NCBI RefSeq assembly: GCF_002934265.1
Contig: NZ_PTIX01000007.1
Coordinates: 248,001 to 312,000 of the forward strand
Direction of reading: 5' to 3'
Source of the DNA: Actinokineospora auranticolor
GTDB lineage: Bacteria > Actinomycetota > Actinomycetes > Mycobacteriales > Pseudonocardiaceae
DNA length: 64,000 nt
Part shown: piece by piece, positions 20,262 to 25,858 of the stretch
Layout: each line of letters starts with the position of its first letter
Position numbering within the stretch: position 1 is the first letter of the stretch
The notes under the pieces: model-generated
What the model was told of the DNA's origin: nothing
The model's database searches: none
The model's input: the letters and a program-made list of their open reading frames with translations, nothing else
Position numbers and translations under genes: made by a program

Positions 20262-20990
20262 GTGAGCTTCTACCTGCTGCCCGCCGTCGACGTCGCCTAC
20301 GGCCAAGCCGTCCGCCTGACCCAGGGCGAGGAGGGCACCGAGACCACCTACGGCACCCCCCTCGACGCCGCGCTGGCCTGGCAGAACGACGGGGCCGAGT
20401 GGGTGCACCTGGTCGACCTCGACGCCGCCTTCGGCCGCGGCGGCAACCAGGACCTGGTCGCCGAGGTGGTCCGCGCCCTGGACGTCAAGGTCGAGCTCTC
20501 CGGCGGCATCCGCGACGACGACTCGTTGGCCGCCGCGCTGGCCACCGGGTGCGCCCGGGTCAACCTGGGCACCGCCGCCCTGGAGAACCCCGAGTGGTGC
20601 GCCCGCGCCATCGCCACCCACGGTGAGCGCATCGCCGTCGGCCTCGACGTGCGCATCAAGGACGGCGAGCACCGCGTCGCCACCCGCGGCTGGACCAAGG
20701 ACGGCGGCGACCTCTGGGAGGTCCTCACCCGCCTCGACCGCGACGGCTGCTCCCGCTACGTCGTCACCGACGTCAGCAAGGACGGCACCCTCCAGGGTCC
20801 CAACGCCGACCTGCTGCGCGCCGTCTGCGCCGCCACCGACGCCCCCGTCGTCGCCTCGGGCGGCGTGTCCAGTGTGGACGACCTGCGCGCGCTGGCCGCG
20901 CTCGCACCGATCGGTGTCGAGGGCGCCATCGTCGGCAAGGCGTTGTACAACAAGAACTTTACGCTGCCGGAAGCCCTCGCCGCCGTCTAG
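20262..20990 (+). CDS. priA: Bifunctional HisA/TrpF isomerase PriA
   Basis: A 242-residue beta-alpha-barrel isomerase. Catalytic Asp in [15 protein letters not shown], and the second Asp in [17 protein letters not shown]. In actinobacteria this enzyme (PriA) serves both histidine (HisA) and tryptophan (TrpF) synthesis, and no separate trpF is seen in the trp cluster here, consistent with that dual role. GTG at 20262 lies 6 nt after TAGGCT, so it may also be read from its own leaderless transcript. Its stop faces the convergent gene at 20997. Confidence 0.94.
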
Positions 20991-20996
20991 GGGCGC

Positions 20997-21623
20997 TCAT
21001 CCCGTTTTGGTGAGCCGGAGGGTTTCCCGCTTGCCGCCGCCGGTGATCGTCACGTAGTCGCCGCTGATCCGGTACGAGTAGTCGCCGTTGACCGCCAGGA
21101 AACCCTCGGGGGTCTCCTCGGCGCGGATGTTGATGTGGTTCTCCTTCGTCACCGGCCGGTCGGTGAACCGGCCGTCGTAGTACGGGAGACCGGACGCGGT
21201 GCGGCACAGCACGATGGTGTGCCGCACCGTGGTGTACGACGCGATCAGCGTGGCCTCCGCTCCGTCCGGTCGGGCCTCGGCCGGGCACGGGTTCCCGGTC
21301 GGTGACGCCGTCGCGGGCTCGGGCAGGATGTGCGCGAGCCGGTCCATCGCGGTCGGCCCGAACACGTACAGCGCCACCGCTACCGCGACCCACAAGGCCG
21401 CCTTCCGCGCTTTGCGCTTGGTACGCGGGGAAAGCGGCCGGGAACGCCTGCGCGCCTTCGGTCTCGACGCGGGTGGCAGACCTGGCGGTGGCGGCGCGGG
21501 CCGAGTCGGGCGTTGCGGCACGGGCGGTGCCGGGACCGCGGTGGCGGGTGGCGGTGGTGGCGTGAGGACGATGTCCGGCTGCCGCGCGCCGTCGTCGAGG
21601 ATCCGCTCAGCCACGCCGCTCAT
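20997..21623 (-). CDS. Proline-rich single-pass membrane protein (TIR-STAND operon)
   Basis: A 208-residue protein. Residues about 15-55 are strongly Pro-rich, followed by a basic stretch (ASRPKARRRSRPLSPRTKRK), one transmembrane helix (ALWVAVAVALYVFGPTAM) and an exported domain of about 110 residues with two cysteines (NPCPAEARPDG, TIVLCRTASG). Domain not recognised. It is the last gene of the operon starting at 25236 and its start overlaps the SPFH-like gene by 17 nt. Its stop is 6 nt from that of hisA. Confidence 0.6.
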   Translation of the reverse strand: MSGVAERILDDGARQPDIVLTPPPPPATAVPAPPVPQRPTRPAPPPPGLPPASRPKARRRSRPLSPRTKRKARKAALWVAVAVALYVFGPTAMDRLAHILPEPATASPTGNPCPAEARPDGAEATLIASYTTVRHTIVLCRTASGLPYYDGRFTDRPVTKENHINIRAEETPEGFLAVNGDYSYRISGDYVTITGGGKRETLRLTKTG

Positions 21624-22509
21624 CGTCCTCTGTGGACGCTTCGATCGCGGGCGCCTCCCGGGTGCCGCCGAGTTCCGGGCGCAGCGGCCTGCGCGACTGG
21701 CGCGGCTCCACCCGCGCGGTCGACGGGTCCTCGCCGAGCAGGGCCCGCCCGGTCGCGTGGATCGCGCGGCTCTGGTCGACCGGCTCGACCGAGTCCGACT
21801 TCAGCACCATGCCGAGGAAATCCAGCTTGGTCCGGTCCTGCCGCGCCGCGGACTCCTCCTCGGCGGCCAGGAACCCGGTCGGGTCGCCGCCGTTGAGCGC
21901 CATGTGGTGCGCCAGCATCTCGTCCCGGCCCCCGTCCACGACCTTGCGCGCGGCTTCCCGCCGGACGTCGTCGACGCGGATCTGCGCGCGGGCCGCCACC
22001 AACCCGGTGCTGTCGGCGGCCGCCAGGTGCACGACCAGGTCGCCCAGGTTGACCGCGTCCACGTGGGTGGCCACGGCCAGCCGCTCGTTCATCGCCCGCT
22101 CGGCCTGCCGCGCCCGCAGCACGTCGAACTGCCCGCCGATCGGCCGCAGCAGCCCCTCCAGGGACGGCTTCAGCGCCTCGGTCATGTCGCGCAGGCCGTC
22201 CCGCACGATCGGCAGCGGGTCCACCACCCGGCAGCTGAAGGACACCTTCGCGTGGAACCAGTGCGCGGGGTCGGCGCACGGCAGGATGGTCGCGAAGTGC
22301 AGCGCGTAGGCCGAGGTGTCGACCAGGTACGAGCGCAGGTGGCCGCCGAACCGCGACCGCGGCACCCGGTCGCCGGGGCTGATCACGCGCAACTCCCCGG
22401 ACTTGTCCTCCAGCACCAGCGCTCGCCCGAGCCGGGGCGGGCGCACCGGGGTGAGCAGCCGCACCGACGACAGCTCGGTGATCTCGACTATCGGGTTGTA
22501 GGTGTTCAC
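21607..22509 (-). CDS. SPFH/band-7-like protein (TIR-STAND operon)
   Basis: A 300-residue soluble protein. The core (about residues 45-170: ISPGDRVPRSRF, WFHAKVSFSCRVVDPLPIV, LEGLLRPIGGQF) resembles SPFH/band-7 domains, with a Glu/Arg/Ala-rich helical part after it that could multimerise, and a charged tail. The resemblance is by eye only. GTG at 22509 has GGGGGAA upstream. It lies between the STAND-like ATPase (35-nt gap) and the membrane protein (17-nt overlap), so it is probably a scaffold or membrane-linked partner. Confidence 0.5.
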   Translation of the reverse strand: MNTYNPIVEITELSSVRLLTPVRPPRLGRALVLEDKSGELRVISPGDRVPRSRFGGHLRSYLVDTSAYALHFATILPCADPAHWFHAKVSFSCRVVDPLPIVRDGLRDMTEALKPSLEGLLRPIGGQFDVLRARQAERAMNERLAVATHVDAVNLGDLVVHLAAADSTGLVAARAQIRVDDVRREAARKVVDGGRDEMLAHHMALNGGDPTGFLAAEEESAARQDRTKLDFLGMVLKSDSVEPVDQSRAIHATGRALLGEDPSTARVEPRQSRRPLRPELGGTREAPAIEASTEDDERRG

Positions 22510-22544
22510 GTGAGTTCCCCCGCTTCTCGGTGTCCTGGTCGCGG

Positions 22545-24635
22545 TCAAGCCCGCTGGAGCAGGTCGTCGTGCAGGTCGACCGCCGGGTGACCCGATTCCC
22601 GCGCCCACCGCTCCAGCAGGTGGAACACGCGGTCCTCGTGTTCGTCGACCGCTATCTCGTCCAGCACGTCCAGCAGCGCGCCGTAGTGCTCCGGTGCCAG
22701 GCCGACCAGCCGCACCCACGCCCGCAGCGCGGCCTCGGCCAGCGGTTTGACCTCCTGGTCCGCCAGCGCCCGCCGCCACAGCAGGGCCAGGGCTTCGCGG
22801 TGGTCGGCCGCCCCGGCCAGCAGCGCGGGCACCAGCGGCTCCCCGCGCGCGGAGGTGAGCACGTCCGCCGCCGCGACGAACACCGTCAGCGCCTTCACCG
22901 TGGTGTCGTCCCCGCTCTTGCCCTCGGTCCACACCAGCAGGGCGGCCAGCACCTCCCGGTCGTGACCGCGTTCGACGAGCAGCCGCGCGCCCGCCGCGAC
23001 CGGGTCGAGCAGCCCCCAGTCACCGCTCGTGACCACAGTGGACAGCACGCGCAGCGCGCGGTCGGGGTCGGTGTCGCCGATCGGGCCGCCGACCGCGGTC
23101 GCCGCTGCGGCGGGCAGGGCGCGCTGCCGCGGCCCACCGGTCGCGGCCCACTGCTCCAGCAGCGCCCACACCGCCGCGGTGTGCCGGGGGACCGCGGCGA
23201 CCACGTTCAGCGCGACCGTCGCGCTGTGCCTGCGCACCGCCGACTTCGCCCGCGCCCACGGCAGCAGGTACCGGTGCAGCGCGTGCTGGAAGTCGCCCGC
23301 CGCCAGCACCCCGGCGGCGAACGCGGCCCGGGTGCGCACCTCGACGTCGAGGTGGTCGACCAGGGTGCCGAGCCACTCCAACACCTTGGGGCGCAAGCCG
23401 TCCAGCTCGTAGTAGAGCCGCGACAGCACCGCCGCCCGCAGGTCGCCGTGCCGGAAGCGGACCACCGGCGGCTCGTCCGGATCGGGCCGGACCAGCTCGA
23501 TCCAGGTGTGCTCGGCGACCAGCTCCCGCTGGTAGCGCAGGGCGCGCCCGCCGGTGCCGCCGAGCCTGCCGAGCAGCGCCACGGCGCCGTCGGCGACGGT
23601 GAGGTAGGTCGACTCCTCCAGCACCGCGGCGGCCAGGGTGAAGGCCAGGTCCCGGGTGTCCGGCTCGGCGCTGAGCCACTCCACGACCTGGGCGTCGGCG
23701 TCGCGCAGCGCGGCGATGACCGGGGCCAGGTCCTCGTCGTAGCGCACCCCCTGGGCCAGCCGCTCGGCGACCCGCGCGGCGAACCCGGGGGTGCCGCGCT
23801 CGATCAACGGGTCCAGCAGCTCGCGGCGGGTCACCAGGTCGTCCAGCGACTCGGCGGACCAGTGCGGCGCGGCTCGGACGAGCCGTGCCCGCAGCACCTC
23901 GACCGGGTCGGGCGGCAGGTGCTCCACCACGTAGGTGCCGCGGTGGGTCGCCGTGGCGAGCGCACCGCGCACCGGCCCGGTGACCACCACGAGGTGACTG
24001 CCCGCCTCGCGCAGTTCCTCGGCGGTGCGGGTGAGCCAGGCGTCGGTGATGGCGTCGGCCGCGTTGTCGTCGTCGACCACCACGAACCCGGTGCCCGGCT
24101 GGGGCACCCGCCACGCCAGGTTGCCCAGCACCCGGCCGTGCAGCCGGGAAACCCGCGGTTCGGGACCGGTCTCGTGGACCAGCGCGGCGAGCGCGGTGCT
24201 GTAGCGGCCGGTGCGGCGCGGCCCGGAGACGATCACCAGGTGCCGCGCGCGCAGGGTCGCGGTCACGTCGTCGAAGCCGTCGGGTGGGACGAAGCAGCCG
24301 GTGTGGTCGTCGAGCTCGGCGGGGCCGACGGGCGTGCTGCGCGGCGCGTACCGGCGCCCGCCCGGTTTGCCGCCGGTGACCAGGTCGCCCATGACCTGGA
24401 TGTCGCCCTGGAAGACGGTGATCCGCCCGCCCGGGGCGGCGATCCGGTCCAGTCCGCGGGTCAGGATCCGGTCGGAGCGCAGGGAATCCCGCCGCTCGGC
24501 GGGGTCGGTCCCCAGCTGCTCCAGCGCCTCGGCCCGCGACGACGGCGGCGGGGGTCCGTCCTCGGCCTCGGGCGGTGCGGGTTCGGCCGCGAGCGGGTCG
24601 GGGTCGGTGTCGGCCGGAGTGGTGTCGGTGCGCAT
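22545..24635 (-). CDS. STAND/NACHT-like ATPase with HEAT-type repeats
   Basis: A 696-residue protein. After an acidic Pro-rich leader comes a short beta-type motif FQGDIQVMGD (residues 75-84). The nucleotide domain begins near 130: Walker A is degenerate (GPRRTGRYST, Arg144 for Lys) and a Walker-B-like strand FVVVDDD follows. Residues about 400-690 are helical HEAT-like repeats. This looks like an NLR-type sensor. The gene is 16 nt after the TIR gene, whose C-terminus has a matching motif. Hydrolysis may be lost; the family call is moderately sure. Confidence 0.6.
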   Translation of the reverse strand: MRTDTTPADTDPDPLAAEPAPPEAEDGPPPPSSRAEALEQLGTDPAERRDSLRSDRILTRGLDRIAAPGGRITVFQGDIQVMGDLVTGGKPGGRRYAPRSTPVGPAELDDHTGCFVPPDGFDDVTATLRARHLVIVSGPRRTGRYSTALAALVHETGPEPRVSRLHGRVLGNLAWRVPQPGTGFVVVDDDNAADAITDAWLTRTAEELREAGSHLVVVTGPVRGALATATHRGTYVVEHLPPDPVEVLRARLVRAAPHWSAESLDDLVTRRELLDPLIERGTPGFAARVAERLAQGVRYDEDLAPVIAALRDADAQVVEWLSAEPDTRDLAFTLAAAVLEESTYLTVADGAVALLGRLGGTGGRALRYQRELVAEHTWIELVRPDPDEPPVVRFRHGDLRAAVLSRLYYELDGLRPKVLEWLGTLVDHLDVEVRTRAAFAAGVLAAGDFQHALHRYLLPWARAKSAVRRHSATVALNVVAAVPRHTAAVWALLEQWAATGGPRQRALPAAAATAVGGPIGDTDPDRALRVLSTVVTSGDWGLLDPVAAGARLLVERGHDREVLAALLVWTEGKSGDDTTVKALTVFVAAADVLTSARGEPLVPALLAGAADHREALALLWRRALADQEVKPLAEAALRAWVRLVGLAPEHYGALLDVLDEIAVDEHEDRVFHLLERWARESGHPAVDLHDDLLQRA

Positions 24636-24651
24636 TCCGCGTCAGGTCCGA

Positions 24652-25236
24652 TCAGGCGTTGAAGTCGCCGTTCACGGTCATCTGGCCTATCTGGAACAGC
24701 TTGTCGACCCGGCCGGTGACCGCGCCGAACCGCGTTTCGGTGTGCGTTGTGACCGATTCCGCGGGGCGCGGCAGATCGGGGTTTTCCGCGCGCAGCCGCT
24801 TGGCGAGGGCGTCTATATCGTGTTCCATGCTGCGGCGGTGGACCCGGAATGCCTGGCTGCGCGCGAGCGCGGCGATATCGCCGGGGAGCGGCCGGTCGGC
24901 GGGGTTCGGCGCGTCGTCGAACAGCACGGGCACCACGACGCGGCTGTGGTCCAGCGCCGCGCGGATCTCCGCGCGGACGAGGTCGTCGGGGTCGTCGAGG
25001 CAGCGGTCACCGGTGTCGGTGGTCGCGCTCGACCACCGGGAACCCAGCAGTGCCAACAACACCCGGCACCCCGCCGCCGCGTCGAGCAGGGCGGGCGGCC
25101 AGGCCGCGCCGAGCGGGATCGACCGCGCCGCGAGGAACACGTGCTCGGCGCCGAAGTGCGCGGCCAGCCCGCCGCGCACGGCGTTCGGCGCGTACCCGAC
25201 GTCGGACGTGCGGTAGTTGATGAAGATGCTCGTCAC
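24652..25236 (-). CDS. TIR-domain effector with C-terminal amyloid-like motif
   Basis: A 194-residue TIR protein. The fold begins SIFINYRTSDVGYAPNAVRG, and the putative NADase Glu is in DDLVRAEIRAALDHS, followed by the strand VVVPVLFDD. The C-terminal tail after about residue 165 ends in FQIGQMTVNGD (181-191), resembling the FQGDIQVMGD motif of the next gene. In other bacteria such matched motifs link NLR sensors to TIR effectors through amyloid templating. First gene of the operon; GTG at 25236. Confidence 0.8.
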   Translation of the reverse strand: MTSIFINYRTSDVGYAPNAVRGGLAAHFGAEHVFLAARSIPLGAAWPPALLDAAAGCRVLLALLGSRWSSATTDTGDRCLDDPDDLVRAEIRAALDHSRVVVPVLFDDAPNPADRPLPGDIAALARSQAFRVHRRSMEHDIDALAKRLRAENPDLPRPAESVTTHTETRFGAVTGRVDKLFQIGQMTVNGDFNA

Positions 25237-25390
25237 GGGTCGCGCACCTCACGGTAAACCGGCTGGGGAGGGGGATTCACCAAACCGGGAGTGCCCGGTC
25301 GACGAGTGGGGACCTTGCCACAGGCGTGCGCGATTGTCCACCGATTCCGGGAGAACTCCCACCGGTGGTCCGTGTTCGTCCACTATTCGT

Positions 25391-25447
25391 CCATTCCCGA
25401 ATGGTGGGCGGCGGTGTTCGGATTGGTGTCCACAATCGATTGGACAC
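25391..25447. promoter_or_regulatory. Two inverted repeats upstream of the TIR operon
   Basis: CCATTC-CC-GAATGG (25391-25404) and GTGTCCA-CAATCGAT-TGGACAC (25426-25447), both perfect. They sit between the end of the PPOX gene and the TIR start, so they could terminate the former or regulate the latter. Confidence 0.4.
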
Positions 25448-25462
25448 GACGGTTGTCGCAGG

Positions 25463-25858
25463 TCAGGAATGTTCTTCCGGCGCGTCCGGGGTGATGGCGA
25501 CGCAGATCGTGCCGGTTGTGCCCCGGCGCAGCCTGCTGCCCTGGACGACCAGCCAGCCCATGGCGCCGTACTTGCGCTGGATCCGCTTGCGGCCCCGGTC
25601 GGACTCGGCGTCGTCGAGCAGGCGGGCGGTGGCGGGGGACGCCGGGCCGGTGGGGTTGCCGCGGGCGTCGCACGGCGCGACGGTCACCCGGGGGTCGTTG
25701 CGGATCCGCTTGACCTTGCCGGAGTCGCGGACGGTCCAGATGACCAGGTCGGCCCCCTCGCGGACGACCCACACCGGGGTGGGGACCGTGGAGCCGTCCC
25801 GCTTGCGGGTGGTCACCAGGAGGTAGTTGGGGTTCGTCAGGTCTTCCTGCGACGGCAT
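25463..25858 (-). CDS. PPOX-class, probably F420-dependent oxidoreductase
   Basis: A 131-residue split-barrel flavin/deazaflavin-binding protein. It shows NYLLVTTRKRDGSTVPTPVWVV at the N-terminus and KVKRIRNDPRVTVAPCDARG, typical of the TIGR03666/PPOX group in actinobacteria. The substrate is unknown. ATG start; the gene stands alone on the minus strand. Confidence 0.82.
   Translation of the reverse strand: MPSQEDLTNPNYLLVTTRKRDGSTVPTPVWVVREGADLVIWTVRDSGKVKRIRNDPRVTVAPCDARGNPTGPASPATARLLDDAESDRGRKRIQRKYGAMGWLVVQGSRLRRGTTGTICVAITPDAPEEHS

Follow-up and report, generated by a model that had tools for sequence, protein, structure and literature searches.

A four-gene operon was identified in which a predicted TIR effector and the neighbouring NTPase carry matching short motifs, located at the C-terminal end of the former and in an N-terminal linker of the latter. 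In related operons the effector is exchanged for a protein of another fold with the tail motif kept. We read the motif pair as a homotypic plug, perhaps of cross-beta type, that would recruit interchangeable effectors to a core of NTPase and SPFH protein in an abortive-infection-type system, and assign this reading a probability of roughly 0.53. The window (the whole stretch of DNA analysed, 64,000 nucleotides) contains the TIR, NTPase, SPFH-like and transmembrane (TM) genes at positions 20997-25236, all on the minus strand, in agreement with the preliminary description. The following features were assigned.

20991..25462, no strand: accessory cassette, from hisA to a PNPOx-like gene (flank genes by Pfam; empty sites)
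20262-20990: hisA, cassette flank (Pfam)
25463-25858: PNPOx-like gene, cassette flank (Pfam)
24652..25236, minus strand: TIR protein, 194 aa, GTG start, predicted NADase effector (Pfam TIR_2, 7.5e-7)
24655..24699, minus strand: putative coupling motif at the C-terminus of the TIR protein (residues 180-194), LFQIGQMTVNGDFNA (tail conservation)
22545..24635, minus strand: AAA+/STAND-like NTPase, 696 aa, with putative HEAT-type repeats at the C-terminus
24372..24413, minus strand: putative coupling motif near the N-terminus of the NTPase (residues 75-88), FQGDIQVMGDLVTG (Phe75 invariance)
24204..24224, minus strand: degenerate Walker A motif, NTPase residues 138-144, GPRRTGR (Arg for Lys)
21607..22509, minus strand: protein with predicted SPFH fold, 300 aa, GTG start (start from orthologs and gene caller)
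20997..21623, minus strand: Pro-rich protein, 208 aa, one candidate TM helix at residues ~75-93 (hydropathy; 14/15 ortholog loci with a homolog)

The TIR and NTPase genes are separated by 16 bases and the NTPase and SPFH genes by 35 bases; the SPFH and TM genes overlap by 17 bases. The start of the SPFH gene at 22509 was picked from the orthologs and the gene caller, the frame being opened at 22932 in the list of open reading frames.

Using a 16-row profile of the TIR protein, SARM1 was found as the closest solved relative (1.1e-8). Glu90 was present in all 16 TIR orthologs and lines up with the Glu of the SARM1 sequence DWVHKE, which we take to be the catalytic Glu642. On this alignment, the TIR protein of the window is predicted to act as an NADase effector. 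Its last 15 residues had a mean pairwise identity of 0.39, compared to 0.23 in the preceding linker (residues 149-179), and Phe192 within the tail was invariant (16/16 TIR orthologs). Nine further TIR_2 matches exist in the genome; the tail motif was absent from the two that were inspected, L004 and L006 (both ~200 aa). At L047, the tail of the TIR protein (L047:8015-8635, minus strand) contains three tandem QA[ED]H units before the GDFHA end, which resemble an amyloid or solenoid motif in repeat. Repetition is also frequent in BASS4 and HET-s motifs, according to the available part of PMC8086366.

The fold of the NTPase is AAA+/STAND-like, with AAA+ and HEAT structural matches on separate parts of the protein. 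Structural matches over the whole length, among them SIR2-STAND Avs5 and SAMD9, were low (Foldseek, TM-scores 0.12-0.27). No Pfam NTPase family was matched at E values up to 1, and by this criterion the protein is neither an NB-ARC nor a NACHT NTPase. The Walker A motif had been called degenerate before, and this was borne out: Arg replaces Lys in 43 of 48 aligned family members, and G143 and R144 were invariant in 17/17 aligned NTPases. The linker motif is located before the nucleotide domain and within a region modelled at a pLDDT below 50 (residues 68-98), low confidence alone being no proof of disorder. Among the orthogroup NTPases, Phe75 was invariant (25/25), Gly83 occurred in all 23 ungapped at that position, and position 85 was Phe in 21. 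Residues 75-86 had a mean pairwise identity of 0.44, compared to 0.26 for residues 67-74 and 0.32 for residues 89-104.

The matching ends proposed in the preliminary description for the effector and the neighbouring NTPase are conserved in the orthologs of both proteins, and the proposal thereby withstood the conservation half of its own refutation test. The shared motif is longer than originally given and extends into GDF-x-A-G, its consensus being roughly F-x(3)-[VIF]-x-[VIF]-x-G-[DG]-F-x-x-G (14-20 residues). Comparison of the TIR tails with the NTPase linkers by hhalign gave 95.1% (E 3.4e-8, valid for this one comparison); the TIR segment before the tail, used as control against the same linkers, gave 0.1%. 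HMM searches were performed on 298 called proteins from 25 orthogroup loci, 16 with a TIR protein and nine with a Bell-like protein in its place. A search with an HMM of the TIR tails retrieved its 16 own members first, then 12 NTPases and 9/9 Bell-like proteins, with others appearing only from E 1.7. The 21 cross matches were individually weak (E 0.0025 to 1.5), and the NTPase of the window was missed among the 298 proteins. With an HMM of the NTPase motif, 11 partner proteins preceded any other protein, and the TIR protein of the window followed later (E 0.68). The naive odds for these two counts, 3.6e-23 and 3.5e-13, are overstated, as the members are related. No third protein of the 25 loci carried the motif above noise. 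A like element on a core NTPase and on an exchangeable effector end, with no third carrier, would be expected for homotypic recruitment.

Exchange of the effector was found at nine Streptomyces-type loci (L039 and L089-L096), in which a protein of 128-137 aa (~131 aa) replaces the TIR protein and carries the same tail in 9/9 cases. L039 is a Streptomyces malaysiense locus; the other eight came from 297 genomes of the family of genome G319, which is probably the Streptomycetaceae, judging from its closeness to L039. The N-terminal ends of these Bell-like proteins are hydrophobic (best 19-residue means 1.20-1.69), and the proteins were judged to be helical with a hydrophobic N-terminus. Nothing above the Pfam cut-off was obtained for the four of nine that were scanned. 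All nine loci form one clade of the NTPase tree (98/99), which points to a single exchange between TIR and Bell-like protein. Tail likeness across the two folds was best for VFNEKVEIQGDWNIS (L092) and VFNERVDIAGDFNLS (TIR protein of L044), aligned with a score of 57. By hhalign, TIR tails and Bell-like tails gave 65.1%, and the corresponding domains 0.8%.

Motif matching at the level of partner types was analysed with more distant operons, for which 25 of 47 weaker NTPase rows were fetched and 23 used; L055, in which the upstream gene is an ABC transporter and not a partner, and L076, in which no NTPase was called, were left out. The partners in the distant set were longer TIR proteins, a DA1-like peptidase, SARP/BTAD proteins and two unclassified sets (236-241 and 231-272 aa), identities being assigned by Pfam scans of one to three members of each set. 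Both unclassified sets look cyclase-like. Within several types, the partner tail resembled the linker of its NTPase, for example VNGDVVGRDKHVGG and VTGDVVGRDSFVGR (L061), VIGQVGDRHD and TVGQVGDRAT (L059), or GNVFATDTIHHVDAR and GNVFVTNSIGLVDAG (L079). The test was carried out on 40 pairs, 17 from the orthogroup and 23 distant, in eight types, which were defined by partner kind after the tails had been seen. The summed cognate score was 20.1 and the permutation mean 5.5 (sd 3.1); 5 of 40,320 permutations reached the observed value, and 2 of 40,320 when the test was repeated. Three controls were null: the preceding 50 residues of the partner (21,105 of 40,320), a C-terminal segment of the NTPase (13,568) and NTPase residues 200-300 (19,160). 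With five clusters defined by NTPase identity alone, the fraction was 1/120, the one being the true assignment itself. When one random representative per type was used, the median permutation fraction was 0.001 (90th percentile 0.0096). Over the 40 partners, the own linker ranked first in 7 cases, within the top five in 22 and below the 20th position in 6. SARPa tails showed no preference for their own linker in this test.

The preferred mechanism of homotypic recruitment would proceed as follows. The NTPase, with an Arg-substituted P-loop and the motif in a flexible linker, would sense or scaffold by means of its HEAT repeats. Upon some trigger, the linker motifs would be clustered by NTPase subunits in assembly with the SPFH protein, and effector tails would join the motifs by homotypic beta pairing, most simply in a cross-beta (amyloid-type) stack. 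The TIR domains concentrated in this way would switch on and destroy NAD+, and the infected cell would be stopped, presumably as a measure against phages. The threshold might be set, where the operon is fuller, by its kinase, PP2C phosphatase and vWA protein. A beta-arch or cross-beta structure is favoured by the alternating hydrophobic residues with a G-D turn, by the linker position, and by the tandem units of the L047 tail. The amyloid nature of the motif is plausible from its sequence; the presence of acidic residues and the scarcity of Q/N count against it.

Unlikely, but the most serious rival to this mechanism, is a shared docking peptide, the motifs of effector and NTPase both fitting one groove on a third partner, likeliest the SPFH assembly. 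SPFH proteins form multimeric scaffolds. Of the 49 examined loci in which an NTPase was called, the window among them, 48 have an SPFH-like gene 3' of the NTPase gene (23/24 of the distant loci, the exception being L066). Co-variation of tail and linker beyond phylogeny was absent in the 16 TIR orthologs (partial r 0.08, reached by 1449 of 5000 permutations); with the Bell-like loci added, 0/5000 permutations reached the observed value, and 96/5000 for the Bell-like loci alone, the partial Mantel tests used here being lenient for related sequences. Direct pairing is also weakened by L047, L049, L050 and L053, where the best match of the tail in the own NTPase fell outside the motif, and by the exchange between TIR and Bell-like protein being a single event on the tree. 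By hhalign, Bell-like tails gave 79.8% with the linkers from TIR loci and 40.2% with the linkers encoded beside them. This preference, together with the escape of the window NTPase from the TIR-tail HMM, takes weight from homotypic binding and adds it to docking. The lack of a third motif carrier in the 25 loci speaks against a docking peptide, though docking predicts this result as well.

It is rather improbable that the operon is an ordinary TIR and STAND-like defence operon, with tails that are merely conserved protein ends and a likeness that arose by compositional convergence on V-x-G-D-F turns. The motif is short, and the pair of the window taken alone was no better than chance: the last 25 residues of the TIR protein scored 23 against the NTPase, a value equalled by 997 of 2000 shuffles with the full NTPase and by 375 of 2000 with its N-terminal region, and the pair ranked 9th of the 40. 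Convergence is opposed by the type-specific matching with its null controls, and by the nearly identical last 15 residues on the unrelated TIR and Bell-like folds: their mean tail similarity of 21.45 was reached by 0/300 shuffles (mean 13.45, sd 0.51). The bodies of the proteins hardly stood out from shuffled sequences, at 29.61 versus 28.55 (sd 0.59; 3/60 reached it). A true RHIM- or BASS3-type amyloid pair, as originally proposed, is hardly credible, since the core pattern (I/V)Q(V/I/L/C)xG, given in a narrower form in the preliminary description, was fitted by IQVMG in the window's linker and by no other of the 25 linkers, nor by any of the 25 partner tails, and membership was rejected. This pattern was found somewhere in 9 of 565 called genes.

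The third gene had been described as SPFH-like, and modelling upheld this: an SPFH fold was predicted (pLDDT 78.4, pTM 0.54), and all 22 PDB matches at E values up to 0.001 were entries of SPFH proteins or of the vault. No strongly hydrophobic stretch was found in this protein (best 19-residue mean 1.28). The only candidate TM helix of the cassette is that of the fourth protein (residues 75-93, 19-residue mean 1.84). The SPFH and TM proteins may place the response at the membrane.

TIR genes upstream and SPFH genes downstream of the NTPase were present in 15/15 ortholog loci other than the window, and the TM protein in 14; in L054 the contig ends shortly thereafter. Gene calling relied on a simple script. 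The SPFH gene of L047 and the TM genes of L049 and L050 escaped it and were recovered by tblastn. A triad of PP2C phosphatase, Ser/Thr kinase and vWA protein was found in 9/16 TIR loci and 9/9 Streptomyces-type loci, the domains being assigned by Pfam in L040 and elsewhere by BLAST to L040. TerY-P triads consist of the same three genes. The window represents the short form without the triad.

The hisA gene is present in each of the 15 other genomes of the genus. A relative of the PNPOx-like gene was located -4 to 1002 bases from it in 14 of these genomes, and the distance in the window is 4.5 kb; no PNPOx-like gene was present at the hisA locus of the fifteenth genome (L107). None of the four cassette proteins matched within the 3.7-kb hisA loci of these other genomes. 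By this comparison of loci, the cassette is accessory and patchily inserted. Among the 297 genomes of the family, 16 (own genome included) contained a close NTPase ortholog and 60 a relative at E values up to 1e-5. Genus mates with orthologs are L051 and L052, and the NTPase of the window groups apart from both on the tree. In the family of G319, the NTPase was found in 8 of 297 genomes using a protein query. A profile search of the phylum at 1e-30 recovered only the own genome among 396, carriers of the G319 family being missed or unsampled. No tblastn match of the NTPase at 1e-10 was obtained in 72,556 plasmid records, and none on viral contigs by the pattern method. The patchy distribution fits a defence-type gene set. 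No known defence family was assigned by PADLOC to the four window proteins and three others, and all NCBIfam matches of the window proteins were far below cut-off.

The cassette was compared to known systems. BASS 1-10, combining NLRs with BELL, CHAT or TIR effectors, were reportedly described by Dyrka et al. in 2020. In BASS, motifs are found at the N-terminal end of the NLR and the C-terminal end of the effector, encoded by adjacent genes, with BELL mostly and TIR more rarely (PMC7889193, available part). As far as the accessible portions of PMC7889193, PMC8086366 and PMC12261475 go, the present system shares with BASS the adjacent genes, the short matching motif on NTPase and effector, the BELL-like (putatively helical) and TIR effectors, and the occurrence in filamentous actinobacteria. 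It differs in its NTPase, with no NB-ARC/NACHT match in Pfam, an Arg in Walker A and putative HEAT-type repeats, and in an operon that adds an SPFH protein and often the PP2C-kinase-vWA triad. EADs, inactive STAND cores, kinase-PP2C-vWA triads and Band7-like effector domains are described in the available part of PMC7159879. According to the parts of PMC7159879 and PMC8195603 at hand, EAD and MoxR-vWA iSTAND systems likewise have one copy of the element on an often inactive core NTPase and another on a swappable neighbouring effector, use TIR, cyclase, peptidase and vWA parts, and occur in multicellular bacteria. EADs, as presented there, are small folded domains, whereas the motif here has 14-20 residues and appears disordered in the model (pLDDT below 50). 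No MoxR was present among the four window genes or the scanned genes of L040, and iSTAND systems are almost absent from actinobacteria (PMC7159879, same part). The kinase, PP2C and vWA triad also occurs in actinobacterial GAP1-N2 neighbourhoods, by the same portion of that article; in contrast to these, no GAP1 or GTPase was seen here, and the triad accompanies the TIR or Bell-like protein, the NTPase and the SPFH protein. Judged from sequence, the system appears to share the logic of BASS and of EADs without the core-defining part of either (NB-ARC/NACHT; MoxR not seen).

In SIR2-STAND Avs5, as probably in the present system, an NTPase is followed by helical repeats and tied to an NAD-consuming or SIR2-like part (Foldseek), and the same presumably applies to SAMD9. 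Unlike in both, the effector is a separate protein here, and the TM-scores to both were low. TEP1 of the vault, which we take to carry a NACHT NTPase, offers a further comparison. The vault combines the SPFH-like shoulder of MVP with TEP1, a TIR-like NADase (PMC13174449, a preprint, available part), and an SPFH scaffold with a TIR-type NADase is predicted here; no sequence kinship to the vault was shown, and MVP was one of many SPFH matches.

A wider reading, offered tentatively and at less than even odds, is that the cassette belongs to a hitherto undescribed superfamily of immune operons in actinobacteria, with a core of degenerate NTPase and SPFH protein and with orthogonal peptide plugs, in which each swapped partner (TIR, Bell-like pore former, DA1-like protease, SARP-like or unclassified) would have its own tail and linker motif. 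The plug types VxGDF, GQVGD, GDVVGRD and GxVDA would each probably be a private cross-beta seed. Taken furthest, this reading would have an SPFH cage or ring hold NADases and so be the bacterial equivalent of a vault with TEP1.

For the question of how immune sensors of bacteria select and activate their effectors, the operons provide a natural domain swap in which the fold changes and the tail stays. If each tail type binds its own linkers and no others, a set of short and mutually orthogonal coupling elements would be at hand for testing, and amyloid-type signalling would be linked to SPFH scaffolds and to control by kinase and phosphatase. A literature search retrieved no title or abstract opening on the combination of TIR or Bell-like protein, NTPase and SPFH protein, subscription papers being largely uncovered and the result no proof that it is unpublished. 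The terms amyloid, SPFH and vault do not occur in PMC9503650, and the available part of PMC7885112 (BASS3) holds nothing on this gene set.

Several minor observations were made at individual loci. The Lys of Walker A is kept, among the 48 aligned NTPases, only in those of L056, L057, L061, L062 and L065. These NTPases pair with the 231-272-aa partners, which are encoded upstream, have an I(V/I)VVDIA-type start and gave no Pfam match in the two scanned (L056 and L061). At the C-terminal ends of SPFH-like proteins (e.g. L040:8136-9137), a stretch R-[VL]-R-[GF] was seen by eye after a variable tail in 10/16 aligned orthologs; it is missing from the copy of the window. L048 contains a second, shorter TIR-like gene without the tail motif (L048:9122-9580, minus strand) directly upstream of the tailed TIR gene; it matched the window TIR protein by tblastn (2.8e-8), gave no Pfam TIR match and looks like a decaying duplicate. 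A divergent HTH gene, absent from the window, adjoins the TIR gene in eight loci (L040, 3724-5046; L041, L043, L045, L046, L047, L051 and L052); it gave weak TPR-like matches in the two scanned and is a possible regulator or sensor. In L069, L071-L073 and L079, a kinase of the L040 type is located upstream of the partner and not downstream of the SPFH gene. It adjoins genes of PP2C and vWA size, so that the whole triad may have been relocated together.
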